Under the pieces are notes generated by a model, which searched no databases, had not been told where the DNA came from, and was given only the letters and a program-made list of their open reading frames with translations. This document shows, in pieces, positions 17,416 through 34,861 of a stretch of 39,360 bases of DNA. How positions within the stretch are numbered: the stretch's first letter is position 1; every line of letters starts with the position of its first letter. Source of the stretch: a virus; IMG/VR virus record IMGVR_UViG_3300045454_000121, positions 1-39,360 of that record. One strand, given 5' to 3'. Position numbers and translations under genes: made by a program.

Positions 17416-17434
17416 TGTTGAAAGACTTACTACA
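17416..17434 (-). promoter_or_regulatory. Ogr-type late promoter dyad for V
   Basis: On the minus strand it reads TGTAG, nine bases, CAACA; the outer arms are CTTGT/ACAAG. Centre at 17425, 56 bases from the A of the gpV ATG. Within 23 bases it differs from the J box by only two bases. P2 late promoters bound by Ogr carry a TGT-N12-ACA dyad near -55; the same halves are spaced by 13 here. Confidence 0.75.
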
Positions 17435-17588
17435 AGGGGAGGAGGTGGCAATGATCGGCGAAATCTAGCGGCGCTCTCGGCCGCCATATAATGCCGAAAA
17501 GCTGTCTGCTCTCGGGATCGTGGACTCTGAGCCGAATATCGGGAACAAGATCAGCCGGGGGTAAATTTACAGCGGTGGTCTTGATCCA

Positions 17589-18473
17589 ATGCCTAGAGGC
17601 TATCGGTGCATCGTGATTGCGGCTCTCGGATGCCTAGTCCTAGCTTCCGCCCCCGCCCCAAATCACAGCGCTCAAGCCAATCAATCCAACGCCACCGAGG
17701 ACGTAAATCGCTCCCTCGCGACGATTGCGGATGCGCAAACCAAGCAAGCCGAAACTGGCGAATATCAGACCCCATGCCCCGACGGTGAGTACAACAACAA
17801 GTCCGATCTTTGCGCCCAGTGGTATGCCGCACGCGCCGCTAGAGACGCGGCAGATTGGGCGTACTGGGCCGTGTTCTGGACGGCGATATCCCTTGCCGTC
17901 AGTGCTGTCGGATTGCTCGCTTTGATCATCACGATCCGGCAAGGTAGGGAGGCTAACGAGATCGCCCGACAAACTGCTAGACTTCAACTTAGAGCGTATG
18001 TCGGAATTAAGATCAGCCTTGTGGATGTAGAAACCGAGAAGCGGTCTCGCGCCGTCGTTTCTCATGACATCGAATTTCAGATTGAGAATTTCGGCTCGAC
18101 CCCAGCGACGATCCACAGAATCGATTTTAATATGAGCAAAACGGCCAGAAAGCCCAGAGAACTTGACGTTTCTGCGCCGCAATTCGCGCCGCGTGAGATA
18201 GTCATTCGCCCCCGGGTGCTGGCTCCAGGAGACCACTTCGTTCATCGGATGCGCGTCGGTTTGCTCCGAGCCGATCTGACAGAAATCAGCGCACTCACGC
18301 GCGAGATATCGGTCGGCATGCGCCTTTGTTACGTCGATATTTACGGCGAGGCCCACGAAATCGTCATTCGCTACGCTAGCAGCGGCCGGTCTTACGATAG
18401 ACGCGAGTTCACGAGATGCTACGAGGAGGCATATTCCTACCCCGAAATGCCGGCAGAGTGGCTTGAGCCGTGA
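17589..18473 (+). CDS. Membrane-anchored cargo protein of unknown function (294 aa)
   Basis: A 294-residue protein on the strand opposite to the late genes. Residues 1-30 are a signal-peptide-like segment (CIVIAALGCLVLASAPAPNHSAQA). A DGEYNNKSDLCAQWYAARAARDAADWAYW region leads into one transmembrane span (about 94-115, AVFWTAISLAVSAVGLLALIITI). Residues 117-294 form a beta-rich domain beginning REANEIARQTARLQLRAYVGI. This layout (TM, then IRQGREANEIARQTARLQLRAYV) is widespread among unnamed proteobacterial proteins; exact function is unknown. It sits between the V promoter and the end of the fibre genes, so it is a moron-type insertion. The 220 bases before it carry the V dyad and no other gene that I can see. 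Confidence 0.8.
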   Translation: MPRGYRCIVIAALGCLVLASAPAPNHSAQANQSNATEDVNRSLATIADAQTKQAETGEYQTPCPDGEYNNKSDLCAQWYAARAARDAADWAYWAVFWTAISLAVSAVGLLALIITIRQGREANEIARQTARLQLRAYVGIKISLVDVETEKRSRAVVSHDIEFQIENFGSTPATIHRIDFNMSKTARKPRELDVSAPQFAPREIVIRPRVLAPGDHFVHRMRVGLLRADLTEISALTREISVGMRLCYVDIYGEAHEIVIRYASSGRSYDRREFTRCYEEAYSYPEMPAEWLEP

Positions 18474-18494
18474 ACTAAACATGACGGCGAACGC

Positions 18495-18508
18495 CATCAC
18501 GGGTGATG
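18495..18508. terminator. Short hairpin between convergent genes
   Basis: catcac-gg-gtgatg is a perfect inverted repeat, 22 bases after the stop of the 294-aa membrane protein and before the 3' end of the convergent 314-aa gene. No T-tract follows, so intrinsic termination is uncertain. The remainder of the 122-base gap shows no gene. Confidence 0.35.
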
Positions 18509-18595
18509 ACACTCGTAATCGCCTTGGTGCATTTGCTACATAATCCCGCTCATTTGAATGCGACGCGTGCTGGGACGTACGGGTCGCCGGGTAGG

Positions 18596-19540
18596 TCAGG
18601 GCATCCCGGCGACATCGTACGCGCCAGGATCGTTGAAATAGCGCCCCCCAGCGGCATGCGCCTTGGTCCACTCCGCCAGCTCGCGCTCGAGCATCTGCTG
18701 AGGTGACAGCGCCTTTGCCGGGTCGGCGTTGGTCAGCAGCGTCCCGAAGTGAAGCCGTTCGAACACGAAGCTCTGCGACTTGTTGTCGTGGATCGCATTG
18801 CCCGAGACGTTGCCGGCCGACACGAACAGCTGTCCCACCGCCTGCAGGGCCTGGGCGACGAAGCGGGCGGTGACGAAGTGCAGCGCCGGCTCGCCGACCG
18901 GCTGCACTCCCGGGGTGTCATAGCGGAACAGCCCCTCATCATTGCCGGTGTTGTTGTAGCCGGTGCTGCCTGCGGGCGACATGCCCATGATCTTGCGATA
19001 GGTCGACCCGGCAACGTTTAGGCCGCGATACATGAAGGGCTGGGCGGCATCGTCGCTGCCGGTGTCGACGCCGGCGCGCAGGGTGCGCGTCCAGAGCGCG
19101 GCAAAGAAGATGTCCTTTGTCGGGACCGCCGCATAGGTTTCGACCCGGCTGTTGGCATAGGCGACGATGTTGGCGGGCGCATTGATCTTGGCCCAGACGT
19201 TGGTGTTGGCGTTCACCCGGCTGACCGTGAACTGAAGGGCGCCGGCGGCGGTGCGATCGGTGCGCGATCGCGTAGCCTGCCCCCAGGCGGTGCCCTGGGT
19301 CAGCGTGGCGCGCAGCGCCGCCGCGTCATTCGCGGTCAGGCCGAGCAGGCGCGCCGCCGGGCGGAAGGCGTGATTGCGGAAGGCGTAGCCCGCGGTGGGG
19401 ACTGCGCCGGGGGCAAGATCGGACAGGCTGTGTCCGGGTTCGATCAGCAGCAGCGACCCGTCATGAATCGCGGGATCGTCATGGTAAGCGGGAAAGCTGG
19501 TGCCGAGCGGCGCGCCGCCGATGTCGATGCCAAGGGTCAC
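18596..19540 (-). CDS. Uncharacterised fibre-associated protein (314 aa)
   Basis: A 314-residue protein beginning MTLGIDIGGAPLGTSFPAYHDDPAIHDGSLLLIEPGHSL. It is rich in Ala, Thr and Asn, with segments such as NTNVWAKINAPANIVAYANSRVETYAAVP and a C-terminal LERELAEWTKAHAAGGRYFNDPGAYDVAGMP. I do not recognise a domain. It is coupled by a four-base overlap to the SGNH-type fibre protein and is the last gene of the J-H block. Location at the end of the fibre genes suggests a receptor-binding, tip or surface-modifying protein. There is no signal peptide or membrane segment. Confidence 0.8.
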   Translation of the reverse strand: MTLGIDIGGAPLGTSFPAYHDDPAIHDGSLLLIEPGHSLSDLAPGAVPTAGYAFRNHAFRPAARLLGLTANDAAALRATLTQGTAWGQATRSRTDRTAAGALQFTVSRVNANTNVWAKINAPANIVAYANSRVETYAAVPTKDIFFAALWTRTLRAGVDTGSDDAAQPFMYRGLNVAGSTYRKIMGMSPAGSTGYNNTGNDEGLFRYDTPGVQPVGEPALHFVTARFVAQALQAVGQLFVSAGNVSGNAIHDNKSQSFVFERLHFGTLLTNADPAKALSPQQMLERELAEWTKAHAAGGRYFNDPGAYDVAGMP

Positions 19541-21435
19541 AGGAGCATTCCTTTCGGGATCATCTGGGTGTCGCGCAGGCGCAGGGCCAGCGCGCGGTTG
19601 GTGGGCGCGTTGAAGTGGATTTCACCGTCATAGGTGAGGGAAGGCGGGGTCACCTGGTCCGCAATCGCCGCATCGTCCGCGGCGGTGCGAACGATGCCCG
19701 TCATCGCGAAGGCGCCGGTCGGACCGAGATCCCACAGCCAGGCATTCAGGTCGAAGGTGCTGTCGGGATGATTGGCCAGTTTCCAGTCATTGTGCGCTTT
19801 CATCGCATTGCGCGCGGTTTGGTCCGGTGCGCTCAGCCCCTCATAGGAAGCGCCGGCGGTGGGCCAGTAGGGATCGGTGATCAGGATGAACTGGCGACTG
19901 CGCGTCTTGATCGAGCCGATCAGCGCGGTTTCGAACACGCCGACCGCCGCGCCCAAAGGGCGATTGCGCAGGTTCCAGATGACGAAGATGCGATCGTCGA
20001 GGTCGCCCATATCGACGATGAAGGGCGTGTCGTTCGGCACCGCCAGCGGCACCGTTCCGCCGACCTGGGCGATCGAATAGACGTTCGCCGCAAAGGTCAG
20101 GACGCAGGGTTGCCCCAGCACCGTGCCGCGCAGGGGCATCAGATAGGGATTGAGGCCCGGCGCCAGCGGCCCGGCGAGGTTGGCGGGCAGCGGGCTGGCG
20201 AGATCCGCGTCGGGCGTGATCCGGGTCAGGGTGACGGGCGCGGCCGCAGGGATCGACCCGCCGGTGACGCGGATCAGCACCGGCTCCGCGCCGTTGAGCG
20301 CCGCGATCCCGACGGCGGTCGCGCCGAAATTGCCGCGATTGACGATGTCCCACCCGGTGCCGAGCAGGGCCTGCATTTCGGCGGGCAAGCTGCCGATCAC
20401 GCCGGCGCGCGGATTGACCGGGTTCGGCTGAATTCCGATCGGCCCCTGGTTGAGGCTGTGCCCAATGAAGACCATGCGCTTGCCTGGCGTCGCCGCCTTG
20501 GGCGTTCCGCCATCTGCGACCCACATGCGTCCGCTGTGCGGCGCGCGCTTCGTCGTATCGACGAAGAACACGTCATCCCCCGCCATGCGGGGCGACGCGG
20601 CATTGCCGACCGTGGCGGGGCTGGTGATCATCGTCGCGACGCCGGTGGCGCGATCGATGCGCTTCAGCTGCTGCGATCCGTTCGACGCGATCACCACCTC
20701 GACATCGACCGTCGCGCCGACCGCGAGCGGATCGACGGCGAGTGCGCGGGCGGTGTCGCCCTTGAACGGGCCGTGCCAGTGATGGCCGTCAAAGTGCAGC
20801 GCGAGCCGGCTCCCCAGGCCGTCGGCATCCGGCACGGTCAGGCCGAAGCGGTATCCGCTTTCGCGCGTGAACAGGTCGGAAAAGACGCGCCGGCGCAGGT
20901 CGGCATTGAGGTCGGTAAGGCGCACCGATCCGGCGGGCAGCTCGACCCCGCCATAGAAGCGATGGATCCCGTCAAGGCCAAGCCCATAGACGATCCGGCG
21001 GCCCAGATTGTCGGGATCGGCGACCGTGAAGACGAAGCGGTAACCGCTCTCGGGGGCGATCCGGTAGGAGAAGGTGACCGACGCGGCGGCCATTTCCGCC
21101 CGATCGGCCTGCTCCGCCGCGGCCGCAGGCGCTCCCAGAATTTCGGGCAGGTCACCCGCGATCGCCGCGATCGCCGGGGACTGAGCGGCGAGCGTGGTGA
21201 TGTCGTCGATCGCGCCGGCGACCGCGACCACATTCTCATCCTGTGCCCAGCCCTTTGCCGAGCGGGTTCCGGCCCCGCCGGGCTCGACACCCTCGGCCCA
21301 TTTCTGGGCGGTGAGGGCGGACGCGTTGCCCAGGTCATCGATGCGCGCGCGCTTGGCGACGCCGTCCTTCAGGATGACGACGGTTTCATCGCCCGCGGGC
21401 GCGGCGACAAACGGGAGGGTCGAAATCTTTGACAT
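19537..21435 (-). CDS. Tail fibre protein with SGNH-hydrolase-like domain
   Basis: A 632-residue fibre protein. Residues 1-60 are a phage-attachment stretch (VVILKDGVAKRARIDDLGNASALTAQKWAEG). Residues about 115-300 hold two similar beta repeats (ESGYRFVFTVADPDNLGRRIVYGLGLDGIHRF; ESGYRFGLTVPDADGLGSRLALHFDGHHWHG). Residues about 318-632 read as an SGNH/GDSL hydrolase: block I is MVFIGHSLNQG with nucleophile S327, a VIWNLRN segment resembles the Asn block, and YDGEIHFN near D603-H607 is the Asp/His block. Such fibre esterases remove acetyl groups from surface polysaccharides during adsorption. Oddities: GHS replaces GDS, and the Asp-His spacing is one residue longer than the usual DxxH. Activity is inferred only. 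Confidence 0.78.
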   Translation of the reverse strand: MSKISTLPFVAAPAGDETVVILKDGVAKRARIDDLGNASALTAQKWAEGVEPGGAGTRSAKGWAQDENVVAVAGAIDDITTLAAQSPAIAAIAGDLPEILGAPAAAAEQADRAEMAAASVTFSYRIAPESGYRFVFTVADPDNLGRRIVYGLGLDGIHRFYGGVELPAGSVRLTDLNADLRRRVFSDLFTRESGYRFGLTVPDADGLGSRLALHFDGHHWHGPFKGDTARALAVDPLAVGATVDVEVVIASNGSQQLKRIDRATGVATMITSPATVGNAASPRMAGDDVFFVDTTKRAPHSGRMWVADGGTPKAATPGKRMVFIGHSLNQGPIGIQPNPVNPRAGVIGSLPAEMQALLGTGWDIVNRGNFGATAVGIAALNGAEPVLIRVTGGSIPAAAPVTLTRITPDADLASPLPANLAGPLAPGLNPYLMPLRGTVLGQPCVLTFAANVYSIAQVGGTVPLAVPNDTPFIVDMGDLDDRIFVIWNLRNRPLGAAVGVFETALIGSIKTRSRQFILITDPYWPTAGASYEGLSAPDQTARNAMKAHNDWKLANHPDSTFDLNAWLWDLGPTGAFAMTGIVRTAADDAAIADQVTPPSLTYDGEIHFNAPTNRALALRLRDTQMIPKGMLL

Positions 21436-21902
21436 CAGCGGGGGTCCGGCCAGTTGGGGTGCGTCGAGGGATCGAAGTCGGTCAGATTGGCTGCCGGCAT
21501 GCGGGCGATCTGGGCCTCGATCGCGTTGGAGGCGGCGCGGATCGCATCGATGCGGATGCGGCGGTCGAGTGCGCCTTCGAGGTCGGTCCCGGCCCCGGCG
21601 AATGCCTCGATCGCGATTGAGGCGGCGTCGTTCGCCTGTCGCTCAAGGCTGGCGACCGCCAGAATGCGGCGGCGCGCCTCGGCCTTTACTGCGGCGATTG
21701 CGCGCAGGCGCAGTTCATCGACGGTGAAGCGGCGCGCCTTGACGATCGGCCGCCCTGTGCGATCGCTGGCGATCAGCTTGCCGGCGGAGCGCGCGGCGAG
21801 CAGCTCGCCATAGCGCTCACGCGAGATCGCGACGGCGTCGGTCGGTACGTCGCGGTGAATGGCGGGGTCGTAGAAGCCGCCGGTCGAAGGGCTGTAGAAC
21901 AT
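21435..21902 (-). CDS. Tail fibre assembly-like protein
   Basis: A 155-residue protein with the typical start of tail fibre assembly (gpG/TfaE-like) proteins: FYSPSTGGFYDPAIH, then ISRERYGELLAARSAGKLIASDRTGRPI, matching the Y-x-x-L-x-x-x-x-x-G-K-x-I-x-x-x-x-x-G-x-P pattern. The C-terminal 90 residues are helical and charged. It would help fold or attach the fibre made by the neighbouring genes. Its start shortly follows gpH (12 bases) and its stop is shared with the next start (TGATG). Confidence 0.82.
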   Translation of the reverse strand: MFYSPSTGGFYDPAIHRDVPTDAVAISRERYGELLAARSAGKLIASDRTGRPIVKARRFTVDELRLRAIAAVKAEARRRILAVASLERQANDAASIAIEAFAGAGTDLEGALDRRIRIDAIRAASNAIEAQIARMPAANLTDFDPSTHPNWPDPR

Positions 21903-21914
21903 CGTGCCTTCCCC

Positions 21915-23423
21915 TCAATAGCCGAGCATGAAGACGTCGAAGCCATCGACGCGCGAGTTGTTGCCGTCCTCGCGCTGCAGCTGGACATAGGTGCCGAGGT
22001 TGTTGGGTGCGGTCAGCTGGGTCCACAGGTCGCGGAAGATGTTCGGGGACGCGAGCCAGCCGGTCACCCCGCCGAACAGCAGGCCGTTGGGAAAGACGAT
22101 CGGCCAGTTGATCCAGAGGGCGCCTTCAACCGTGATCACGCCGCGATAGGCGACCCATTGCAGGATCGGCATCCGCCCCTCCTCATCCGGAAAGGGCAGG
22201 GTCAGGTAGCCGTTCGGGGTCAGGCTCTTGGGCAGGTTGGCGAGCGTCGATGGCGCGATCGCGCGATTGCCAGCGCGGGCGGCCAGCTCCGCGACGGTGG
22301 CCGCGATCACGGACAGGACCGGGTTGGCCGAAAGCGCGCCGCCGCCGGTGACCAGGCCGCCGCCGGTGACGGTCGCGCCTCCGGACGCCTTGCCAGCGAT
22401 CGCCGCGAGCACGGCTTCAAGGCTGGCGGGGGTGAGCGCCTTGGTGTTGAGCGCGGCGGCCAGCGCTTCCGCCGGGCTGGCGATGGGCAGGTTGAACGCG
22501 CGATCGGCGGCCAGCGACCCGCCCTGGCCAGCGAGCAGGCCAGCCCCGGTGATCGCGCGCGCAGCCGGAGCCGCGCCGACGTCCGCGGCGGTGAGCACCA
22601 CGGTTCCCACCTTTCCGTTGACGCTCGACACCGGTGCGGGGGTCGAAATCTCGAGCCAGTTGGCGAGGACCGTGGCCGGTGCCGCCTGAAGGACGTAGAC
22701 AAGCCCGCTGTCCGCGCGAACCGCGAAGTCACCGACGGTCGCGGCGAGCGCCAGCATCGCCGCCTCATTGGCGGCGGGGAACACGTCGATCAGGTCGATC
22801 GGCGGACGCTGAGACAGGAGCAGCTTGCCATCCGGGCCGAGCGTGGCAACGCCGCCCGCGACGCCCAGCTGATCCGCCGCGACATAGTTTGCCAGGACGG
22901 CCGCCATCGTCGCCGGGGTGATGATCTTGTCGGCCACGGCGCCAGCCAGCGCCTCGGCGATCGTCGCGAGATAGGCGACGCCCTTTTCCGCCTCGGTCGC
23001 CGGCGGGTTGAGGAAATTGGTGTCGCCGAACGCGATCAGGTCCGCTTCGCCCGACAGGAATTTCAGGTCGATCGCGGTGAGGAAGTGCGAGGCCGCGAAT
23101 TTGCCCAGGAACGGTGTGGCCTGACCGTAGACAGCGAACAGCGTCCCGTCGGCGAGATAGAGGCCCAGCCCGCGCGCTTCATAGGCGTCGTCGCTCGAAT
23201 CGCGGATGACCAGGTGCAGCGTATCGGGATCCGCAGCCGTGCCGGAGATCGCGGCGACCCGCTTGAACTCACCGGGCAGGGCTGTGAGCGTCGGCGCGGC
23301 GACGAAGGTCGCATCGGTCAGCCCGGCTTCAGCGATCACCACCGCCGCAGTGCCGCCGCCCTCGGCATCGACCAGGGCAGCGCGGCCCGCGTCGGTGATC
23401 ACGATTTCAAGCGGTGTCGTCAT
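21915..23423 (-). CDS. H: Tail fibre/collar protein gpH-like
   Basis: A 502-residue tail fibre protein. The first 150 residues are the P2-family fibre N-terminus (MTTPLEIVITDAGRAALVDAEGGGTAAVVIAEAGLTDATFVAAP, KRVAAISGTAADPDTLHLVIRDSSDDAYEARGLGLYLADGTLFAVYGQ), which docks to the baseplate. The middle has Ala-rich shaft repeats (ATMAAVLANYV, GALSANPVLSV, and so on). The C-terminus (about 400-502) has the aromatic, Gly-rich look of a receptor-binding tip. It follows gpI with a four-base overlap. Host range probably depends on this gene and the SGNH-type fibre. Confidence 0.88.
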   Translation of the reverse strand: MTTPLEIVITDAGRAALVDAEGGGTAAVVIAEAGLTDATFVAAPTLTALPGEFKRVAAISGTAADPDTLHLVIRDSSDDAYEARGLGLYLADGTLFAVYGQATPFLGKFAASHFLTAIDLKFLSGEADLIAFGDTNFLNPPATEAEKGVAYLATIAEALAGAVADKIITPATMAAVLANYVAADQLGVAGGVATLGPDGKLLLSQRPPIDLIDVFPAANEAAMLALAATVGDFAVRADSGLVYVLQAAPATVLANWLEISTPAPVSSVNGKVGTVVLTAADVGAAPAARAITGAGLLAGQGGSLAADRAFNLPIASPAEALAAALNTKALTPASLEAVLAAIAGKASGGATVTGGGLVTGGGALSANPVLSVIAATVAELAARAGNRAIAPSTLANLPKSLTPNGYLTLPFPDEEGRMPILQWVAYRGVITVEGALWINWPIVFPNGLLFGGVTGWLASPNIFRDLWTQLTAPNNLGTYVQLQREDGNNSRVDGFDVFMLGY

Positions 23424-24070
23424 GCGGCGCTCCCGTCGATGAATTGGCCGTTGTCATCCTCAAGCGGCTCGCCATTTTCGTCCTGGATCAGGTCGGCCCA
23501 GGGGATGCCGGCCGCGTCCGTCGCGGCGAGATCGAGCCGGCGGTAACCGACGGGAACAGCCCCGGCGATCGGCGCCGGAAGGCCGAGAAGTTCGAGCCGT
23601 TGAACCAGCGCGAAATGGGAGCGGACCGGTTTGGCCCGGGTGACATCGGTGATGATCTGGCGCGCAAAATCCGCCGACACCCGATCGCCGCCGGCGACGC
23701 CTTCGGCATCGATCAGCGGCAGATGCACCTCGAAGGTATGGGGGGCGAGGCGCGGCGTTGCCTCAAACCATTCGACCAGGCGCAGGAGATCGTCGAGCGA
23801 CTGCATCGCCTGCTCGACGGCAAGCCGGGTGCCCTTGATCCGTTGCGCGGCGATGGCCCCGGCGACGGTCGCGCGCTTTTCATCGTCGCTCCAATCCGCG
23901 TCCCAGCGATCGACGGACAGCGTCCAGGCCAGCCACGGCAGGATCTCGATCGGACAGGCGGCGGGATCCCAGAGCGTCGAGACATCGACCGGAACATTAT
24001 CGATGCGGCTGCCGGCTTCCGACAGCGCGCGCTCGAGCTCCGAACTGGCGGGTGGGAGGAGATCAGCCAT
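23420..24070 (-). CDS. I: Baseplate protein gpI
   Basis: A 216-residue tail protein of the gpI family, which links the baseplate to the fibre. Motifs: LLPPASSELERALSEAGSRIDNVPVDVSTLWDPAACPIEILPWLAWTLSVDRWDADWSDDEKRATV, diagnostic for the family. The ATG at 24070 overlaps the gpJ stop by eight bases; a TTG six bases upstream is an alternative start. It follows J and precedes H, as in P2. The C-terminal half carries a DENGEPLEDDNGQFI end typical of the family's variable tail. Confidence 0.92.
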   Translation of the reverse strand: MADLLPPASSELERALSEAGSRIDNVPVDVSTLWDPAACPIEILPWLAWTLSVDRWDADWSDDEKRATVAGAIAAQRIKGTRLAVEQAMQSLDDLLRLVEWFEATPRLAPHTFEVHLPLIDAEGVAGGDRVSADFARQIITDVTRAKPVRSHFALVQRLELLGLPAPIAGAVPVGYRRLDLAATDAAGIPWADLIQDENGEPLEDDNGQFIDGSAA

Positions 24071-24953
24071 CGGCAAGCGTCACGTCGGTCCCGGTGCAAT
24101 GGGCGATCTGCGTCCCATCGGGGATGATGTCGGTGGCGGGTTCGGCGAGGGCGACGTTGAGGACGCCCTCGACATGAAGCGCGGCGATGATTCCGGAACG
24201 GGTGACCGGGCGACCAATCTTGCGCGCGTCGGCGATGAAGCTGGCGAGGCGAGCTTCAGCGGCGGCGAGGACGACGATCGCATCAGGCCCCTGGAACAGC
24301 GTGAGTTCCGCGAACACCGTGAAGGGGATCAGCTCGACGGATGCGACCGTGACCAGGTCGGTCAGCGGGCGGACCTCCCGCGCGTTGACCACCGCCTCGA
24401 CCGCCGCGATCTGGCTGGGTGAAGCCGTGCCGTCACCGAGCCGCGACAGGATCGTTACCAGCACCTCCCCGGGTTCCGGGCTGGTCGCTTGCGCATCGGC
24501 GATCGTCGCGTCGGCCGACAAGGCATGAAAGCGATAGGCAGTGGCGGGGCCGGCGACGCTGAAGCTCTCCGGAGCGAGCTGGATCCGGCGGCGCAGGTCC
24601 GCGTCGCTCTCGTAGGTGGCTGGCGTGGCGCCATCTGCCTCCGCGAGGAGCAGGCGCCCGACGTTTACAAGCGCGCCCAGATTGTCGAGATCCGCGCCGG
24701 TCGCGTAAGCGAGCATCGTCTGCAGGGCGCGTTCATTGAAGGCCTGACGAAGCAACAGCTCTCGATAGGCGAACACCTCGAGCAGCTTGACCGCGGGATC
24801 CGAGGCGACCGTCGCGTCGAACTCCGGGAGACGCGCCTGAAGGTCCGCGACCAGCTCTGCGCGAATTCCGGCGAAGGAAAGGGGCGCGAGGAAGCTGGGC
24901 GGCGGGAGGCGCGAGAGATCGATCGCGGTCGAGGATGAGATGAGATCGAACAC
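24063..24953 (-). CDS. J: Baseplate protein gpJ
   Basis: A 296-residue baseplate wedge protein. The family signature is clear: DLSRLPPPSFLAPLSFAGIRAELVADLQARLPEFDATVASDPAVKLLEVFAYRELLLRQAFNERALQTMLAYATGADLDNLGAL, then DADLRRRIQLAPESFSVAGPATAYRFHALSAD. It is the first gene of the J-I-H-fibre operon. The GTG at 24953 is taken because the conserved N-terminus begins there; an ATG at 24961 lies in another frame. The GTG lies exactly 56 bases from the centre of the J dyad, and no Shine-Dalgarno sequence precedes it, so leaderless translation is possible. Confidence 0.92.
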   Translation of the reverse strand: MFDLISSSTAIDLSRLPPPSFLAPLSFAGIRAELVADLQARLPEFDATVASDPAVKLLEVFAYRELLLRQAFNERALQTMLAYATGADLDNLGALVNVGRLLLAEADGATPATYESDADLRRRIQLAPESFSVAGPATAYRFHALSADATIADAQATSPEPGEVLVTILSRLGDGTASPSQIAAVEAVVNAREVRPLTDLVTVASVELIPFTVFAELTLFQGPDAIVVLAAAEARLASFIADARKIGRPVTRSGIIAALHVEGVLNVALAEPATDIIPDGTQIAHCTGTDVTLADG

Positions 24954-24999
24954 GGCGCCATGTCGGCGGGATAAGCGGCGTCGCGCGACCCCGCGCTCT

Positions 25000-25018
25000 T
25001 GTTGAAAGCGTTACTACA
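25000..25018 (-). promoter_or_regulatory. Ogr-type late promoter dyad for J
   Basis: On the minus strand TGTAG, nine bases, CAACA; outer arms CTTGT/ACAAG. Centre 25009, 56 bases from the first base of the gpJ GTG. It lies in the 77-base gap between the S stop and J start and shares 21 of 23 bases with the V box. Confidence 0.75.
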
Positions 25019-25030
25019 AGAGGGAGCGGG

Positions 25031-26160: not shown

Positions 26161-26164
26161 CGGT

Positions 26165-26918: not shown

Positions 26919-27373
26919 AGCCCTTCCTCCTGCAGCCATGCGGCCACGTCGAACGATGGGCATTGCTTGAGCCATTCATGCGGCTCGATCTTGCCGTCGC
27001 CGTCGCGGTCGGGCGACAGATCGCGATGGCCGCAGATGCGGGCGCGGGGGAAGCGTTCCTTGAGCTCAACGATCAGTTCGCGCAGCGCGGCGCGCTGCTT
27101 GGGGCTGCGGGTGTCCTTCGCCTTGCCCTGTGCGTCGACTCCGCCAGCGTAGCAGATGCCAATCGACTTGGCGTTGTGCCCGGCGACGTGCGACCCGATC
27201 TGCTCAAGCGGTCGGCCGACCTCACGCGTGCCGTCGATCTGGATGAAATAGTGGTAGCCGATCGCGTGGAAGCCGCGCGCGCGGTGCATCCGGTCGATAT
27301 CGGCGGCGGTCACCTTCTGCCCCTCGCGCGTCGCGGCGCAGTGAATGACGATGGTGTTGATGGCGCGCATCAT
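26915..27373 (-). CDS. Endolysin: N-acetylmuramoyl-L-alanine amidase with EF-hand-like loop
   Basis: A 152-residue amidase of the T7 lysozyme (Amidase_2/PGRP) family, cutting the bond between muramic acid and the stem peptide. Likely zinc ligands are H11 (IVIHCAA), H116 (GHRDL) and C138 (KQCPS), with Y40 and K136 in the positions of T7 lysozyme's catalytic Tyr and Lys. The loop between H116 and K136 is longer than in T7 lysozyme and contains DRDGDGKIEPHE (residues 122-133), a textbook 12-residue EF-hand loop. Start ATG overlaps the holin stop (ATGA). There is no signal peptide, so export depends on the holin. Confidence 0.93.
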   Translation of the reverse strand: MMRAINTIVIHCAATREGQKVTAADIDRMHRARGFHAIGYHYFIQIDGTREVGRPLEQIGSHVAGHNAKSIGICYAGGVDAQGKAKDTRSPKQRAALRELIVELKERFPRARICGHRDLSPDRDGDGKIEPHEWLKQCPSFDVAAWLQEEGL

Positions 27374-27726
27374 TTTCCCTTTCCGATAAGGCGGTCGCGG
27401 ATGAGGGCGGGCAGTCCGCCGATCACGTCGGACGCGCCGGCAATGAAACGGGGGGTGGCTTCGAAGGCGATCATGCCGATGGTGAAGGCGATGGCCTGCA
27501 TGACGAACGGGTCGGGTTCATGCCGGAACCAGAGCGGCCATAGCGCGCCGATCGCGCGGGTCACGAACCAGCTGACCACGATTCCAACGGCGAGCTGCAC
27601 AAAGCGCTCCCGCCATGTCAGCCCTTTGCGCCATGCCATGCCGACCGCAGCGCCAATCGCGCCGGGGAACAGGCCCGACAGGAGGGTCAGGAAGGCGTCG
27701 GCCAGCGCGAGCAATTTGTTTTCCAT
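27370..27726 (-). CDS. Holin-type membrane protein
   Basis: A 118-residue protein starting MENKLLALADAFLTLLSGLFPGAIGAAVGMAW. It has three hydrophobic spans (about 8-30, 45-65, 75-95; FVQLAVGIVVSWFVTRAIGALW, FVMQAIAFTIGMIAFEA) and a basic tail (RDRLIGKGK). It sits directly before the endolysin, which makes it the holin. The ATG at 27726 is just after the X stop. The frame is open further upstream, but that part overlaps X. Confidence 0.82.
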   Translation of the reverse strand: MENKLLALADAFLTLLSGLFPGAIGAAVGMAWRKGLTWRERFVQLAVGIVVSWFVTRAIGALWPLWFRHEPDPFVMQAIAFTIGMIAFEATPRFIAGASDVIGGLPALIRDRLIGKGK

Positions 27727-27727
27727 G

Positions 27728-27943
27728 TCAGCTCCAGAGTTGGACGAGATCGCGGGTCGCGGGGGCCGTCGAGGCGATGGGGGGGATGGTGACGGGCGTT
27801 CCGATCGGGAGTTCGGCACCAAGGCCGGCGATTCCCCGGTTTGCAGCCAGGACCGCAGGCAGTGCGGAAGGGCCGAGGCGGCGTTCACGCCAGAGGAGGC
27901 CGTCGAGCGTGTCGCCCGCGCGGGCGCGGATCGTGTCGGCCAT
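27728..27943 (-). CDS. X: Tail protein gpX (LysM-like)
   Basis: A 71-residue tail protein of the gpX family with a LysM-like fold: MADTIRARAGDTLDGLLWRERRLGPSALPAVLAANRGIAGLGAELPIGTPVTIPP. In P2, X is a tail component encoded between L and the lysis genes. Its ATG abuts the L stop, and the next gene (holin) begins one base after its stop. Short, but the family match is good. Confidence 0.92.
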   Translation of the reverse strand: MADTIRARAGDTLDGLLWRERRLGPSALPAVLAANRGIAGLGAELPIGTPVTIPPIASTAPATRDLVQLWS

Positions 27944-28425
27944 CAGATCAGCTCCACCACGGTTCGCCCTTCGCCGCGGATGTCGCGGACGGCGTGGATC
28001 ATGTCGCGGCGTAGCTCGCCCAGCGCTGGGTCCAGTTCATCGACCTGTCGCTGCCCGGCGCCGGTCAGGTCCGTGTCGCGGTAGCGTTCGACCAGCTCGA
28101 CCTTTGCAGCCGCGCCGATCGCGCCCGAATAGAGCTGAAGCAGCTGGCTTTTGCCGTCGATCTGATCCGCCGGGACCGCCGCCAGATTGGCATGACCGGC
28201 GGCGATCTGGGCGGCCTTCCACCCCGCGAGCTGGCGGTTGACCGTGATGATTCCGTCGATGATCGCGCGGCGCAGGCGCGCAGGGGTGACATTTTCCCGC
28301 ACGCGGCTGTCGGCGCGCACATCTGCAGGGTCGATGTCGGGAAACCACCCATCGTTGGTGACCACGGTCTCCGTCGGGGACGGCGAGGGCGCAACCGGGG
28401 TGGCGTCGAAGACGAAATCGCTCAT
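27943..28425 (-). CDS. L: Head completion protein gpL
   Basis: A 160-residue head completion protein joining the portal to the tail. It has NDGWFPDIDPADVRADSRVRENVTPARLRRAIIDGIITVNRQLAGWKAAQIAAGH and LQLYSGAIGAAAKVELVERYRDTDLTGAGQRQVDELDPALGELRRDMIHAVRDIRG, the family core. The ATG at 28425 overlaps the stop of the membrane protein upstream (ATGA). X follows. In P2, L directly follows M; here an 85-aa membrane protein is inserted. Confidence 0.92.
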   Translation of the reverse strand: MSDFVFDATPVAPSPSPTETVVTNDGWFPDIDPADVRADSRVRENVTPARLRRAIIDGIITVNRQLAGWKAAQIAAGHANLAAVPADQIDGKSQLLQLYSGAIGAAAKVELVERYRDTDLTGAGQRQVDELDPALGELRRDMIHAVRDIRGEGRTVVELI

Positions 28426-28679
28426 GGCGCCAGCGCCAAGGCGAGGACGCATGCGGTTCCGAAATAGAGGGCGAGGCCGAGCAGAGCGAGCGCGATCGAG
28501 GCTGCCCGCTGGCGCCAGGTGAAGGCAAGCAGGGTGAAGACGAGGCCGGCCGCGACCGCCCACATGCTGGCAAGCAGCACGAGCGACGAAACGAGCACGA
28601 CGAAGGCGAACGGAAAGAAGTGACCGACCAGAATGATCGCGGTCGGCGCGGCGAGGATGAGTGCGCGAGCGATAGTCAT
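28422..28679 (-). CDS. Small multi-span membrane protein between M and L
   Basis: An 85-residue hydrophobic protein with about three membrane spans (ALILAAPTAIILVGHFFPFAFVVLVSSLVLLASMWAVAAGLVFTLLAF; ASIALALLGLALYFGTACVLALAL). It is coupled by ATGA to gpL and preceded by a 109-base gap after gene M in which I see no gene. P2 has no gene in this place. It might modulate lysis (antiholin) or exclude other phages; no motif decides between these. Its small size and high hydrophobicity fit a membrane peptide. Confidence 0.65.
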   Translation of the reverse strand: MTIARALILAAPTAIILVGHFFPFAFVVLVSSLVLLASMWAVAAGLVFTLLAFTWRQRAASIALALLGLALYFGTACVLALALAP

Positions 28680-28788
28680 GGTCGGTCCTTCGAATGTTTC
28701 GGGGGTGGGGATCGGGTCACTGGCGGCCCTCAGGACGAAGCCCCTCCCGCCATGCGCGATCCGCCCCCGACGCCGGGGGGCGAGCCTG

Positions 28789-29643
28789 TCAGCCGGTCGA
28801 TGCCGGCGGTTCGATTGCGGTAAGCAGCTTGGTCAGTTTCTTGATCCGGTCGGTGACCCCGACGCGCTGATCGAGGTTGCGGGCGCGACCGAGCGTTTCG
28901 AGCGCAAGCTTGGCCAGCGGCTTATTGGTGATCGCGTCACCTGCGTCGCTGAGCGCGCTTCGCATCTGCTCGATGCCGATCGCCTTTTTGAGCTTGGCGC
29001 GGATCTGATCGTGCATGTCCGCGTCGGCGGTGAGCATGTCGATGCGCGCGAGGATCTCGAACGGGAAGGATTCACCGGCCTGCTGAACCTTCCACGCTGC
29101 GGTCGCGATCTCTTCGACGATCAGCGCCGGGGCGGAGCGTTCATAACGGGCGGGCAGGGGCAGGTTGTGCGCGAGCACATGCTCGACCAGGGCGAGCGCC
29201 CCGTCGAAGTCGCCGGTATCGATCCGCCAGATCATGACGGTGGGCAGGACGTCCTCCTCAAGCCCGGCATCGGCGTCGAGCAGCCCCTGCACCCATGCCG
29301 CATAGTGCGGGAGCATTTCGCGTTTCGCCTCGATCTTCTTCTCGATCGAGGCGATGTCGCGCAGGCGGCGCAGATCGTGTTGCAGGCGCAGATTGACCTG
29401 GGCGGTGGCGCGTTCCTGTGGCGTGCCCGATTCCGCGGCCGCGACCGGCTGCTCGGCCTGTGCCGTGGCGGCGGTGCGCGCGAGGGTGCGATCTTGCGCG
29501 GCGCGCGCGGGCGTCATGGTGAACGGCTTCGCGAGCGGCGCGACGGCGGATTGCCCGCCCTCGCTCGTGGATGCGACGCGCTTGGGGTCGGCGGACGTCG
29601 CAGTGGCGGCGTGACGTTCCCGATGGAGGCGAGCTGGGCTCAT
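28789..29643 (-). CDS. M: Terminase small subunit/endonuclease gpM
   Basis: A 284-residue small terminase subunit (phage terminase endonuclease M family). It starts at the ATG of MSPARLHRERHAATATS. The conserved core is EKKIEAKREMLPHYAAWVQGLLDADAGLEEDVLPTVMIWRIDTGDFDGALALVEHVLAHNLPLPARYERSAPALIVEEIATAAWKVQQAGESFPFEIL. The first 70 residues are low-complexity. It works with the large subunit gpP (encoded divergently at 34909) to cut cos and load DNA. It follows N with 47 bases between, in the P2 order. Confidence 0.92.
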   Translation of the reverse strand: MSPARLHRERHAATATSADPKRVASTSEGGQSAVAPLAKPFTMTPARAAQDRTLARTAATAQAEQPVAAAESGTPQERATAQVNLRLQHDLRRLRDIASIEKKIEAKREMLPHYAAWVQGLLDADAGLEEDVLPTVMIWRIDTGDFDGALALVEHVLAHNLPLPARYERSAPALIVEEIATAAWKVQQAGESFPFEILARIDMLTADADMHDQIRAKLKKAIGIEQMRSALSDAGDAITNKPLAKLALETLGRARNLDQRVGVTDRIKKLTKLLTAIEPPASTG

Positions 29644-29690
29644 GGTCGATCCTGTTCGAGTGAGGGCGGACGGAGGAAGGGGCCGGGCCG

Positions 29691-30746
29691 TTACGGCGCG
29701 TATGCCCCGAGCTGGATGTTCTCGATCAGGCAGGCCTTGCCGTATTCCTCGACCATGAAAGCGTCGTTGATGCTCTCGTAGTTCTCGATCTGGTCGAGGG
29801 CCGGTTCGTCGCGGATCGCGCGGCGGGCGGTGCCGACCTGCCAATAGTAGGACAGGTTCTTGAGGCTGGTGATCAGGATCGCGTTGGGCGGGAAGAACGG
29901 CACCTGCATCGTCGGCTTACCGCCAAGCTGGCGGCTCGACAGGATGACGTCGCGCGCGACCTGTTCGGTCGCCTTGTCGCCTGCCTCCGAGACGATCTTG
30001 AAATATTTCTCGTGGACCAGGTCCGAGCCGACGATCACCACCAGGTCGGTGGCGGTGCGGAAACGCTCGTGCAGCAGGTTGTGGATCGCGTCGAAGACCA
30101 GCGCGTCGAGATTGACATAGTCCGCCTGGCCTTCGTCGGAGACATAGACCTTGAGGGTGTCCTGGCCGCCATGGCTCATCACGCGGGCCGGTGCGTGGGT
30201 CCGCATCTTGTAGAGCCAGCCATAGTTGACGTCCTGAAGCAGCGGATAGGTGTCGCGATCGGTCTGGGCCGCGGCATCGACGCCATTGAAGCCAATTGTG
30301 ATGATGTCGGCCGCTTTCTGGGTGATCACCGCGTCACGGCACAGCTGCTGAAACTCCGGGCGGTGCGCCCAAGCGTCGAGCAGGGCATAGCCCCAGGCAT
30401 AGTCGTAATCCGTCTTGCGGCAGTGATACTGATCGATCGCATCGCTGCCGGTCGGATCGGTGGGGGTGCGGCGGTTGCCCGCGGCGCGGTTGGTGCGGCT
30501 TGCCAGCGAGCGGGCGATGCCGACCCCGACGCGCGCGCCCTGCTGCTCGACAACGGGGACGACATTGATCCGGCTCATGAAGTCGGAGGTGAGGGCAAGC
30601 TTTGCCTGCAGCTTCTGTTCGATCACCGGGACGACGGCGAACTGCTTCAGCTCGCCGGGAATGGCAGTGAAGTCATCGGGCAGCTGGTTGAGCTGCGCGA
30701 GCTGGCCGACGTAGCGGTTGAAAAGGACTCGGGTGTTCGGCTGCAT
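29691..30746 (-). CDS. N: Major capsid protein gpN
   Basis: A 351-residue P2-family capsid subunit with the HK97 fold. Family sequences seen are MQPNTRVLFNRYVGQLAQLNQ, FTAIPGELKQFAVVPVIEQKLQAKL and RKTDYDYAWGYALLDAWAHRPEFQQLCRDAVITQKAADIITIGFNGVDAA, with a C-terminal YESINDAFMVEEYGKACLIENIQLG. As in P2, the gpO scaffold gene lies immediately upstream and M downstream. No sign of truncation. Confidence 0.95.
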   Translation of the reverse strand: MQPNTRVLFNRYVGQLAQLNQLPDDFTAIPGELKQFAVVPVIEQKLQAKLALTSDFMSRINVVPVVEQQGARVGVGIARSLASRTNRAAGNRRTPTDPTGSDAIDQYHCRKTDYDYAWGYALLDAWAHRPEFQQLCRDAVITQKAADIITIGFNGVDAAAQTDRDTYPLLQDVNYGWLYKMRTHAPARVMSHGGQDTLKVYVSDEGQADYVNLDALVFDAIHNLLHERFRTATDLVVIVGSDLVHEKYFKIVSEAGDKATEQVARDVILSSRQLGGKPTMQVPFFPPNAILITSLKNLSYYWQVGTARRAIRDEPALDQIENYESINDAFMVEEYGKACLIENIQLGAYAP

Positions 30747-30797
30747 GGGGGCGACTCCGGGGGGCGAGGGGCGTTCTGGGGTGGCGTGGGGGCTGGA

Positions 30798-31634
30798 TCA
30801 GCAGTCGGTGACGAACTGTGCGTTCGGGCTAGCGCCGGTGGCAGGCGCGCGGCTGAAGCGGGTATCGGGGCTCTGTTCGAGCCGCGCCTTGATGTCCGCG
30901 AACTCGCTCTCGATCGCGGCGACAGCATCGGACACCGGCTTCACTGCGGCGCTGATCTGCTCACCGACGGCTGCGCCCATTGCCGCGCTGAATGCCTGGG
31001 CGTCGAAATTGTCGTTGGCGGGGGGCTTGCGCTCTTGCTGCTTGGCCGGCTCCGGCTCGTTGCGGAACTTGGCGAAAAAGGCGGTGAGGCCGCCGGTGAT
31101 CGCGTCGGCAATACTGGTCGCGTCGGGGGGCTTGGCGTCGAACTCGATCGCGACGCCCTCGGTCCCGGTCGAGTAGATGGTGCGATGGACGGCGGCCGAG
31201 CGCGAGAAGGTCAGCTTCTCGGTCGCGATGCTGGCGGGGTTGTCGGTGAAGGCGAGGCCGACCAGGCCAACCTTGCCGGTGCCGGCATAGTCGGCGGTCA
31301 GCTCGACCGAGGGGAAAGGCTTCTGACCGCTCCTGGCCAGATCGACCAGCTGGTCGAGGGCGTCGACCTGGGCATAGAGCGCGCGGCGCTTTTCGCTTTT
31401 GCCGGCGATGACGATGTCATCGGTCTGCGCCTTCACCGCGCAGATGTCGCCGTAGCGGTTGAAGGGCGGGTTCGGGCTGAAGCCCGAAAGGTGCTCGATG
31501 TTGATGCCGGGAGTGTAGGTCGCGGCGTTGAAGGTCTCGACGGCCTGGTCGATCATCTCCGCCGTAACAGTGCGGCCGTCGCTGATCGTCTGACCCTCGA
31601 CGAACGCGCGGAAGAACTTGCTCTTGGTGCCCAT
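30798..31634 (-). CDS. O: Capsid scaffold and protease gpO
   Basis: A 278-residue scaffold with an N-terminal serine protease domain (MGTKSKFFRAFVEGQTISDGRTVTAEMIDQAVETFNAATYTPGINIEHLSGFSPNPPFNRYGDI; the H in IEHL and the S in VELTADYAGTG's region fit the family's protease part) and a C-terminal coiled-coil scaffold (AAVKPVSDAVAAIESEFADIKARLEQ). The ATG at 31634 matches the family's usual start and has an AGGGGA Shine-Dalgarno sequence. An in-frame ATG at 31688 would add 18 residues; it lies 55 bases from the centre of the O dyad. Which start is used is open. First gene of the O-N-M-L-X-lysis-R-S operon. Confidence 0.92.
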   Translation of the reverse strand: MGTKSKFFRAFVEGQTISDGRTVTAEMIDQAVETFNAATYTPGINIEHLSGFSPNPPFNRYGDICAVKAQTDDIVIAGKSEKRRALYAQVDALDQLVDLARSGQKPFPSVELTADYAGTGKVGLVGLAFTDNPASIATEKLTFSRSAAVHRTIYSTGTEGVAIEFDAKPPDATSIADAITGGLTAFFAKFRNEPEPAKQQERKPPANDNFDAQAFSAAMGAAVGEQISAAVKPVSDAVAAIESEFADIKARLEQSPDTRFSRAPATGASPNAQFVTDC

Positions 31635-31733
31635 GGCGGTGCGGTCCCCTGGTCGATGCGATGCTGGCGGCGATGGCCGCAGTGACATCGGCGAAAGGGG
31701 ACGAAGGGGCGGCGGTTCTCAAGACTGTCTCGC

Positions 31734-31752
31734 TGTAGACTAGGACTCTACA
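31734..31752 (-). promoter_or_regulatory. Ogr-type late promoter dyad for O
   Basis: On the minus strand TGTAG, nine bases, CTACA, a perfect 6-bp dyad tgtaga/tctaca. Centre 31743, 109 bases from the usual gpO start but 55 from an in-frame upstream ATG at 31688. It lies in the 153-base gap between the DUF6481 gene end and gpO. Confidence 0.72.
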
Positions 31753-31787
31753 AACGAGACCGCGCGCTGCAGTCGACCTACCGGCGC

Positions 31788-32114
31788 TTACCGCGAGCGC
31801 CTTTTTCGCGGAGAATAGCGCACAGTACGCGCGAGCCTTTGGTCTTCCTCTGTCAACTCTGGAATTATTGCTTCGAGCTCTCGCCTCTCAATTGAGCGCG
31901 CCAGCCTATCCGCCTTCTCGCGCTCTCGCGCGTCGCGAACAGCCCGCCTTTTTTCAGACTCGGCAGCAGCACGCGCCTCGCGGGCGGCTTGACGGGCTGA
32001 GATCTCAGCTTCGCCCTTTGGAGCCTTCTCTCGGAGCAAGTTAAGAGCCGCTTGCTTTGCCTTGGCAGCTAGAGCTACGCGCTCTTGGAATGTTGGGGGC
32101 TTGAAAGCAGGCAT
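31788..32114 (-). CDS. DUF6481-like small charged protein (108 aa)
   Basis: A 108-residue, highly charged helical protein: MPAFKPPTFQERVALAAKAKQAALNLLREKAPKGEAEISARQAAREARAAAESEKRRAVRDAREREKADR. The start pattern F-K-P-P-T-F-Q-E-R-V-A-x-A-x-x-A-K and the Glu/Arg/Ala coiled-coil tail match the DUF6481 family, common in Alphaproteobacteria, with no known function. It is not part of the P2 core set and lies between O and P with the ATPase gene, under its own likely promoter (32145-32173). Cargo gene of the lysogen. Confidence 0.8.
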   Translation of the reverse strand: MPAFKPPTFQERVALAAKAKQAALNLLREKAPKGEAEISARQAAREARAAAESEKRRAVRDAREREKADRLARSIERRELEAIIPELTEEDQRLARTVRYSPRKRRSR

Positions 32115-32144
32115 GGATTGGTCCGCTCGAGTAAATCAGTTTGT

Positions 32145-32173
32145 AACGTAATAAGCCGCGCACTCTATGGCAA
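32145..32173 (-). promoter_or_regulatory. Possible promoter of the DUF6481-like gene
   Basis: On the minus strand TTGCCA (32173-32168), 17 bases, TACGTT (32150-32145). The -35 is good, the -10 weak. It would start about 24 bases before the ATG at 32114. Confidence 0.4.
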
Positions 32174-32229
32174 CTGCCGGCGAGAGGCTTCGCAATGTGA
32201 GGGGCGTTAATCGATTTGAACGATCAAAG

Positions 32230-34680
32230 CTAAGCCCCCGAACCCTCCACAACGCGTCTTACTGAATCAAACGACTTTGACTGATCGTTGACTGCAGACT
32301 GAAAATCAAAATAGTTTACATCGAAATTTGACTCGTACCAGATGGCCAGAAGGTAATTCAAGAAAGCTAATGATTTCTTGTACCGGTCCCATATCTCGAA
32401 GCTGGATGCGTACTTGAAAATGGTATCTCTTGCTTCCTTGTCGAACACAGGTGTGTCTATGGACATGGCATCCATGAACGAGAATGACCCAATCCAGTGA
32501 CGAATATGGTAAATTCCGACCGAGGTTGCGCGATAATTGAATGTCTCATTAAATTCATCATCTGACACCGCGAGCTCTCTAAAATGTGCGTGTGGCGTTT
32601 CGATGAGTCGATGTTCTGCGAGTCTTCTCAGTGAGGCCCGAATTTGTGTCTCAGCGAACCCTAGTCGGATCATTTCGGCTAGAACGACCGCTCCTGGAGC
32701 AAAGCCGTCACTATTCTGCAGTCCAGCTGGCGAATTTAGATATCCCACAATCAATGAGCCTAAAAAGTGCTCACGCTGGTCCGCGAGTTTCACGTCAAAA
32801 ATGTTACAGGCCACCAACGAAGACGTAGCATTGTAATACGCATACTCTCCGAGCAGGGCGTGCTTAGTGAACTCGTGGAATGGAACAACGTATTGTTTTT
32901 TCTCTTCCTCAATTCTTACAATTCGTTCAGATTCTACATTCGGCGATCCGCAGAAACTTGTAATAAGTTCTAGTATCAGGCGGGTGTTTCCGCCGGTAAT
33001 GTTGGCAAGAAAAGTTCTAATATCGGCGTTGCGCCGAATAGAGCGCAGCATTGCGCGTAGGAATAGCTCGATATTTCCTAAATTTAGGCTGACGCCTTCC
33101 AGAGCTGCGGGGGCAACCCTTCCCGACGCGACGCGAAGTGCAAATACAATGCGCTTTCGGATCACCTCGTGCGCTGGCGGAGGTGATATGCTCAGAACCT
33201 CGTTTTTGTAACCGGACAATGCCCCGCTAAGCTTGGATGCGTAAAAAGTGGAAGGTCGAAGCGCGACAAATATTAGCATAGCTCGACCAGAAGCAAGTTC
33301 CTGCGCTACGAGAAATGCCTCTTGTTGTGTCTCAAATGTTCGTTGATCTGCATTGTCTAGAACAATCATTACTTGGCGACTCATCGCCTTCACGATATAA
33401 TTTAGAGAGCGATGTACATGTGTCGGTCTATCATTTACCATCGAAGCCAAAAACGAAATTCGTGCTTTTAGGTACGCGGTTCGATCAATATTTTTTAGCT
33501 GTCCTTCAACGCTGTCATCAAACTCAGCGATCTCCGCAGCGTACAGCTTTGATGCAAACTCATTGCTATCAATGTTGATGTCGTACTCTTCTCTTAATAC
33601 AAGTGGCACACGACGGATAAAATAAGATTTTACGTCGATCGATAGTGCTGCCTCTTCTCCGAGATTTACGTGAATATAGCAGGTGCTCAGTTTTTCACTG
33701 TCGTCGAGTTTTTCGAATAAGTTCTCGAAAAAAGATGTTTTTCCGACGCCGACGTCACCGATTACGACGATTGGTCTTCCAGTCGTTGAGAGACTGTCTT
33801 TTGTCGTAAGTTTAACTACGCCATCTTCAACTTTTGTCGTCAAGTTGGCAGGGGCGATTCCGTTATCAGATACACGGCGATACCGCGAGGCAACAACGTC
33901 GCTCCCGAGCAGTGAGTTGTTATTATCTCCATAAACGGAAACGTAACACTCACGATAGAAGTCACTTTTCACATCTGGATTGTACTCCACATCCTCGAGA
34001 AGGACAGTTGCGAGGGTACGGAGGTTCTCTTGAAATGGAGTTCTGTATCGATACGCTTTGGCATCGCTTAGGGTGGTCGAAGCTTTAACTGGAATACGTG
34101 GGTTCTGCAGGTCAGCGAGAGCACGCACGGCGATGTTTTCGTAAACCCCTTCGGGAGACAGGAAGCGCCAGAGCGAGGGAAAGTCGGACAAATACGCATT
34201 GAAGCCATCGAAGACAAAGCATTCACCATCAAGCGGTGAGCCACTGTGCCCTACGCTCTGAAATATGACCATTTGCGGCCCGTTACAAACGACCGCGAGG
34301 CGCGCGCCGTGGAGAGCGCAATATCCAATCACTTGCGTGCATGCAGCTTTCAAATTTGGGCAGGAGTCGACCAAAGACCGAAGTTTGCGGGCAGATCGCG
34401 GTCTCGCTGATGGGAGAAAGTTAAACTTTTTCGCTTCCTTCTTGGCCTCAACCGCTGCGCGAATAGGGTTGCCGAGGAGATAATCCGCGCGCCCCCCTCC
34501 CTCGTCAAATATCTCCACGGCGATCAGAGGCTTTTCCCAGCCCAGGCACTCGCTCAGAAGTCGGTCTATAAATTGAAAGCGATTCTGGGCTTCGCTCCAG
34601 TGCGCACTGTCAGGGGGGAAGGTCTCAATGATCCCCTTAAGCGCAGCGCGACCCTGATGCATTTCGATGGAAGCCTGCAT
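32230..34680 (-). CDS. Nuclease-ATPase fusion (HsdR-like PD-(D/E)XK plus P-loop NTPase), candidate defence gene
   Basis: An 816-residue protein. Residues about 30-140 resemble the HsdR_N nuclease domain: NRFQFIDRLL, then RADYLLG with D66, VEAKK with E78 and K80, and QVIGYCALHGARLAVVCNGPQMVIF with Q117. Residues about 300-490 are a P-loop ATPase: Walker A GDVGVGKT (308-315, K314) and Walker B VMIVLDNAD (D442), followed by LIFVALRPS. Residues 500-816 are helical, without a recognised domain. It is visibly richer in A+T than the flanking structural genes and differs in codon use, so it came from elsewhere. It sits alone between O and P. A nuclease plus STAND/AAA-type switch is the layout of abortive-infection defence (Avs-like), but no TPR sensor repeat is obvious. 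Function is inference. Confidence 0.8.
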   Translation of the reverse strand: MQASIEMHQGRAALKGIIETFPPDSAHWSEAQNRFQFIDRLLSECLGWEKPLIAVEIFDEGGGRADYLLGNPIRAAVEAKKEAKKFNFLPSARPRSARKLRSLVDSCPNLKAACTQVIGYCALHGARLAVVCNGPQMVIFQSVGHSGSPLDGECFVFDGFNAYLSDFPSLWRFLSPEGVYENIAVRALADLQNPRIPVKASTTLSDAKAYRYRTPFQENLRTLATVLLEDVEYNPDVKSDFYRECYVSVYGDNNNSLLGSDVVASRYRRVSDNGIAPANLTTKVEDGVVKLTTKDSLSTTGRPIVVIGDVGVGKTSFFENLFEKLDDSEKLSTCYIHVNLGEEAALSIDVKSYFIRRVPLVLREEYDINIDSNEFASKLYAAEIAEFDDSVEGQLKNIDRTAYLKARISFLASMVNDRPTHVHRSLNYIVKAMSRQVMIVLDNADQRTFETQQEAFLVAQELASGRAMLIFVALRPSTFYASKLSGALSGYKNEVLSISPPPAHEVIRKRIVFALRVASGRVAPAALEGVSLNLGNIELFLRAMLRSIRRNADIRTFLANITGGNTRLILELITSFCGSPNVESERIVRIEEEKKQYVVPFHEFTKHALLGEYAYYNATSSLVACNIFDVKLADQREHFLGSLIVGYLNSPAGLQNSDGFAPGAVVLAEMIRLGFAETQIRASLRRLAEHRLIETPHAHFRELAVSDDEFNETFNYRATSVGIYHIRHWIGSFSFMDAMSIDTPVFDKEARDTIFKYASSFEIWDRYKKSLAFLNYLLAIWYESNFDVNYFDFQSAVNDQSKSFDSVRRVVEGSGA

Positions 34681-34842
34681 TCATGTAATCCCGGTTTGCC
34701 CTAGTGCCACGATCGCGATTGAGCATTCGGCGCCTACGTTAAGGCAGGCGCGGTGCTGATCAAGTACGTTTGCCGCTAGATCGGCGGTTATCGGTCGGGT
34801 TCGCTCGAGGCACCCGGTGTCGCCCCATTTCGCGCTGAATCA

Positions 34843-34861
34843 GGTAGAATGGGCTACTACA
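34843..34861 (+). promoter_or_regulatory. Ogr-type late promoter dyad for P
   Basis: On the plus strand GGTAG, nine bases, CTACA. Centre 34852, 57 bases from the gpP ATG. The weakest of the four (the leading T is G), but the spacing and orientation agree. It lies in the 228-base gap between the ATPase start and P; I see no gene in that gap. Confidence 0.62.

Follow-up and report, generated by a model that had tools for sequence, protein, structure and literature searches.

Palindromes ahead of late operons in a P2-like sphingomonad prophage are probable operators of its activator Ogr and vary between related phages

Four inverted repeats, one in front of each late operon of a P2-like prophage, are very likely operators for Ogr, the late activator that the phage itself encodes, as a first, sequence-only reading had proposed. 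We give this assignment a probability of about 0.9. It draws on positions that match those of P2, on a PF04606 protein encoded in the same prophage, and on a covariation between operators and Ogr that goes beyond that of the structural genes. From these data we infer binding and activation by Ogr, its dimeric state and the transcription start points.

The prophage and its four dyads

The window (the whole 39,360-base stretch analysed, viral-contig record IMGVR_UViG_3300045454_000121) carries a P2-like prophage whose P2-type capsid, terminase, sheath and baseplate genes lie in operons, which places it in the Peduoviridae (phrog_70, 73, 74, 3746, 23 and 43, among other genes of that type). Ogr used as a query against genome contigs gave no match, and gene O was used instead. 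Its 19 genome-contig relatives are labelled Sphingomonas in 18 cases and as an uncultured bin in one, so the earlier description of a sphingomonad prophage fits; a dyad precedes O at 17 of these loci (15 full, 2 partial). The main features of the window are the following.

1-1113, minus strand: integrase
4023-6743, minus strand: primase-like gene, adjoining ogr
6839..7153, minus strand: ogr, 104-residue zinc-binding late activator with a CX2CX22CX4C motif (PF04606, phrog_603)
17369 to 10279, minus strand: tail operon V-W-FI-FII-E-T-U-D
16806..17369, minus strand: gene V, baseplate assembly, first in its operon, without a Shine-Dalgarno sequence (phrog_9992)
17413..17437 (core 17416-17434, centre 17425), minus strand: predicted Ogr operator of V-W-FI-FII-E-T-U-D, 28.8 bits, rank 2
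From 24953, minus strand: J-I-H-G operon
24063..24953, minus strand: gene J, baseplate wedge, first in its operon, without a Shine-Dalgarno sequence (phrog_4226, phrog_6)
24997..25021 (core 25000-25018, centre 25009), minus strand: predicted Ogr operator of J-I-H-G, 34.0 bits, rank 1
From 31634, minus strand: head and lysis operon, O-N-M-L..., O first
30798..31634, minus strand: gene O, scaffold/protease (phrog_73)
31731..31755 (core 31734-31752, centre 31743), minus strand: predicted Ogr operator of O-N-M-L..., 10.7 bits, rank 4
32230..34680, minus strand: cargo gene between the O and P operators, 816-residue P-loop NTPase (phrog_14719, no function assigned)
34840..34864 (core 34843-34861, centre 34852), plus strand: predicted Ogr operator of P-Q, 15.5 bits, rank 3
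From 34909, plus strand: P-Q operon, divergent from O
34909..37023, plus strand: gene P, large terminase (phrog_3746)

The start of gene O was set at MGTKSKFF by comparison with relatives, and the reading frame of gene P probably runs beyond the usual gene end. The window also holds a D12-class adenine methyltransferase adjacent to the portal gene (37930-38724, plus strand), a second methyltransferase-like frame (1354-2337, minus strand) and, divergent from V, a 294-residue gene with no Pfam match (17589-18473, plus strand). The V operator lies between V and the latter gene and could drive both.

The boxes that had been reported upstream of V, J, O and P are present, and those of V and J are indeed identical at 21 of 23 bases. 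They form the cores of 25-bp palindromes with the consensus TCTTGTAGAAAG-N-CTTTCTACAAGA. The palindrome centre lies 56 bp ahead of the V start codon, 56 bp ahead of the GTG start of J and 57 bp ahead of the P start; the O dyad is 109 bp ahead of the O start, and the V and O distances are those found in relatives. We took the operators of 19 relatives, excluding the window, to build a weight matrix and scored all window positions with it. The J, V, P and O boxes are exactly the top four. The fifth-best position, inside the cargo gene, scores 0.1 bits, about 10 bits under the fourth, and no matrix site occurs at the early or switch region of the window. Across 200 dinucleotide shuffles of the window, the best score was 10.1 and the fourth-best was always -0.4 or less. 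The pattern first proposed is not enriched in the window when 2 mismatches are allowed (33 occurrences for 26.8 expected), which is why the matrix replaced it, while its zero-mismatch form is found at the four boxes only. The P box, with its GGTAG half, is the poorest fit to that pattern, and the O box has the lowest matrix score. The reported orientation of the boxes with transcription carries little meaning, because the site is palindromic and, in most relatives, one box serves the divergent O and P operons.

This sharing is clear in the relatives. In 34 phages without cargo, the O and P starts are 153-193 bp apart, and a single palindrome is common to both operons in 33 of these, G045 being left unassigned. 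In the five phages with cargo, including the window, the starts are 791-3275 bp apart (3275 in the window) and each of the five has separate O and P dyads. The two sites of the window are separate because cargo was inserted between them. The cargo gene had no PADLOC match, and its AAA matches were below the cut-off. Since it starts 172 bp to the left of the centre of the P operator, it too could be driven by a bidirectional site.

The Ogr of the window carries the Ogr_Delta domain (PF04606, 58.0 bits for a cut-off of 26.3), and the cysteines of its motif (C13, C16, C39 and C44) are invariant in 31 relatives. Its predicted structure is a three-stranded zinc ribbon (mean pLDDT of 80, and 95-97 in the zinc domain). 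The model weakly resembles the DNA-binding zinc ribbon of NrdR, its best Foldseek match (E 0.12, 1.3-1.4 A over 48 residues). A search for solved structures gave none of Ogr, the sole sequence match being RPB9 (E 0.015).

Operator words of related phages and their covariation with Ogr

We searched 40 related records for palindromes at the expected distances, without imposing any motif. Nearly every phage has copies of one dyad word at V, J, O and P, and a single spacing type. Half-sites are much more identical within a phage (0.915) than between phages (0.614). Most of the related phages use the word TCTTGTAGAA. Others use TCTTGTGGAG (G026, G031 and G044), GGGTGTCGGG (G013), TCTTGTCGCG (G047), AATGGTAGAG (G022), AATCGTAGAG (G029 and G035) or TGCTGTAACC (G028). 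Words with N14 spacing are CCTGTGGAA in G046 and CCTTGTGAAA in G023, and CATTTGGACA occurs with even spacing in G027, G030, G036 and G038.

Six relatives, though not the window, carry a further operator-like site, lopsided in shape, which lies some 1.2-1.5 kb downstream of ogr: G014 (L141:5075), G015 (L145:1718), G034 (L201:1886), G019 (L150:17153), G048 (L200:6767) and G020 (L152:6811). After the site come a conserved CTGGCGC block and, roughly 60 bp from the site's centre, an ATG. It is a candidate for a fifth site of Ogr action, which would serve an early or accessory gene.

The divergence of the operator words tracks that of Ogr (Mantel rho 0.555, p 0.0005). This correlation persists after controlling for each of the 11 structural genes tested (0.42-0.56, p about 0.001), and the correlations of N, P, J and D with the operator are lost given Ogr. 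In a dereplicated set of 26 phages, from which near copies were removed, rho is 0.415 (p 0.003). When the primase gene that adjoins ogr serves as the control, the value is 0.207 (p 0.21), in a dereplicated set of 11 phages that is too small for a decision either way. The covariation is a correlation, and the tape measure gene T (11706-14231 in the window) correlates with the operator word as strongly as Ogr does (0.62, and 0.547 given Ogr), likely as a result of shared ancestry. A column-by-column comparison of Ogr residues and operator letters, in which the removal of near copies was the sole phylogenetic correction, gives leads at H15, S25, Y47 and A50-S53 (numbering of the window protein), and several of the associated residues fall in the last strand of the protein.

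Promoter geometry and translation starts

Aligning the promoters of about 30 phages on the dyad centre revealed a second conserved block at +44..+49. In relatives it reads CATGGT at V, GACATGGC at J (conserved in about 80% of 29 phages), GGCTAGGT at P and CCCTGTT at O. Its position is where a -10 element would be expected for a transcription start near +55. The putative promoter elements of the window are listed below.

17376..17381, minus strand: -10-like CATAAC of the V promoter (+44..+49), predicted from the position of CATGGT in relatives
24957..24965, minus strand: putative -10 region CGACATGGC of the J promoter (+44..+52)
31694..31699, minus strand: putative -10 region CCCTTT of the O promoter (+44..+49), CCCTGTT or CCTTTT in relatives
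31717..31722, minus strand: -35-like TTGAGA of the O promoter, at +21..+26 relative to the centre of the dyad

In the 29 O promoters aligned, TTG is invariant and TTGAG is present in nearly all; TTGAGA would be a -35 element with 17-bp spacing. The P promoter of the window lacks the CTAGGT -10 of its relatives, and its -10 block is unrecognisable. The GenBank record of P2 places activator sites at 3057-3087, 10239-10266 and 17555-17583, and start points at 3127, 3016, 10308 and 17626-17628, with site centres 55-59 bp away. In the window, the palindrome centres lie 55-57 bp ahead of the point where each late operon is predicted to start. Together with the block at +44..+49, these distances fit the geometry of P2.

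The start codons of V, J and P lie at +55..+60 from the dyad centre in most phages, and Shine-Dalgarno-like words are rare ahead of them (0 of 41 for V, 1 of 39 for J and 2 of 39 for P). The control genes N (28/34), O (22/27) and Q (17/18) usually have such words, and W (8/39), FI (8/25) and T (3/17) are intermediate. The proximity of the start codons and the rarity of these words lead us to predict that the V, J and P mRNAs are leaderless or nearly so. In the window, V transcription is predicted to start at or beside the V start codon (17369); in the P2 record, the start point of V is the first base of V. Upstream of the conserved O start there is an in-frame ATG (31634-31688, minus strand), exactly at +55 relative to the O dyad centre. 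From a leaderless message, the window and its relative G001 could produce an O protein longer by 18 residues.

Alternative readings, known systems and significance

The dyads could be bound by some other phage or host regulator, such as a repressor or a late co-regulator, with Ogr covarying for no other reason than that it shares the genome. This is unlikely. The binding of Ogr to the dyad is something we infer, and the tape measure does covary with the operator as strongly as Ogr, but the dyads occupy the position of the annotated activator sites of P2, the early and switch region of the window has no matrix site, and the signal from N, P, J and D vanishes given Ogr. We consider it far less probable still that the repeats work at the RNA level, forming terminators or hairpins where operons end. 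Like such elements, they are intergenic and perfect or near-perfect, yet they are not followed by a run of T, they lie upstream of the predicted transcript start, and the O/P site sits between divergent operons, where no transcript end is needed. Their distance to the start codon is almost fixed across 40 phages, and the two half-site spacings and phage-specific letters fit binding by a protein.

With Ogr as the regulator, the late switch would work as follows. Ogr, a zinc-ribbon protein and probably a dimer, would bind a 25-bp palindrome whose centre lies about 55-57 bp before the transcription start. It would then bring the host RNA polymerase to promoters whose -35 is weak or missing and whose -10 departs from the consensus, so that V, J, O and P are switched on late in infection. 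The site between O and P would act in both directions; in the window, cargo would have split it, leaving each side its own copy. Transcripts of V, J and P would start at the start codon or within a few bases of it. Ogr and all four operators would have changed together in each phage lineage, so that each lineage would have its own word.

The system resembles that of P2 in its four late operons, its centres 55-59 bp from the starts (predicted here), the O/P site (single in the P2 record for pO and pP) and its CX2CX22CX4C zinc protein. It differs in the sites: those of P2 have the published consensus TGT-N12-ACA (PMC3931495), near -55, whereas the sites described here have N13 (N14 in some relatives) and a much longer, near-perfect palindrome with phage-specific letters. 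The matrix run on P2 did not place P2's own sites among its best matches. The two matches to TGT-N12-ACA in the window are at the level expected by chance and lie away from the late promoters; of 76 upstream regions of gene O in viral contigs, 60 contain TGT-N13-ACA and none contains TGT-N12-ACA. The absence of P2-type half-sites marks a subtype and not a different kind of system, because N13 was earlier proposed for members of the family: the Ogr motif of the Ralstonia phages phiRSA1 and phiRSY1 was predicted as TGTTGT-N13-ACAACA (PMC5694545), with a half-site TGTTGT where most of our phages have TCTTGTAGAA. Operons here are JIHG and VW-FI..D, and in P2 VWJIHG and FI..D. The arrangement of the window (PP', PO', PJ' and PV') is that of the Stenotrophomonas phage Smp131, whose late promoters are described as carrying TGT-N12-ACA, one of the four being given as a 19-bp site (PMC3931495). 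The Pseudomonas phage Dobby (Citexvirus, NC_048109) has TTGTAG N13 dyads ahead of its O/P, V and FI genes, less perfect than those of the window (3.6-10.1 bits by our matrix), in P2-like operons. Other N13 words precede O in the Aeromonas phage LPM4 and the Burkholderia phage AP3.

The initial claim of a new specificity is thus partly upheld. The N13 spacing had been predicted earlier (phiRSA1 and phiRSY1), and the TTGTAG..C-ACAA word also precedes late operons of Dobby. What appears to be new goes beyond the initial claim: the diversity of phage-specific words, the spacing change, the concerted change of the four sites and the covariation with Ogr. We found no description of such words and their covariation with Ogr in the literature searched, where nothing joined Peduoviridae, Sphingomonas and prophage.

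A broader picture is tentative, and we rate it at slightly less than even odds: P2-like phages of Sphingomonas may have split into many distinct Ogr-operator pairs (with words such as TGTAG, TGTGG, TGTCG, GGTAG, CGTAG, TGTAAC and TTTGGA, at N13 or N14), their four operators rewritten in concert, their late switch orthogonal to those of prophages and satellites in the same host, and leaderless mRNAs serving three of the four late operons.

The activators examined to date (P2 Ogr, P4 Delta, PSP3 and phiR73) can largely replace one another, and their sites are degenerate, which has made it hard to learn how the Ogr/Delta zinc proteins read DNA. Forty natural Ogr-operator pairs with clear letters and two spacings make such a recognition code directly testable. 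They would also help to predict which prophages and satellites activate each other's late genes, and the short, fixed distance between dyad and start codon allows a clear test of whether alphaproteobacteria translate late operons from leaderless messages.
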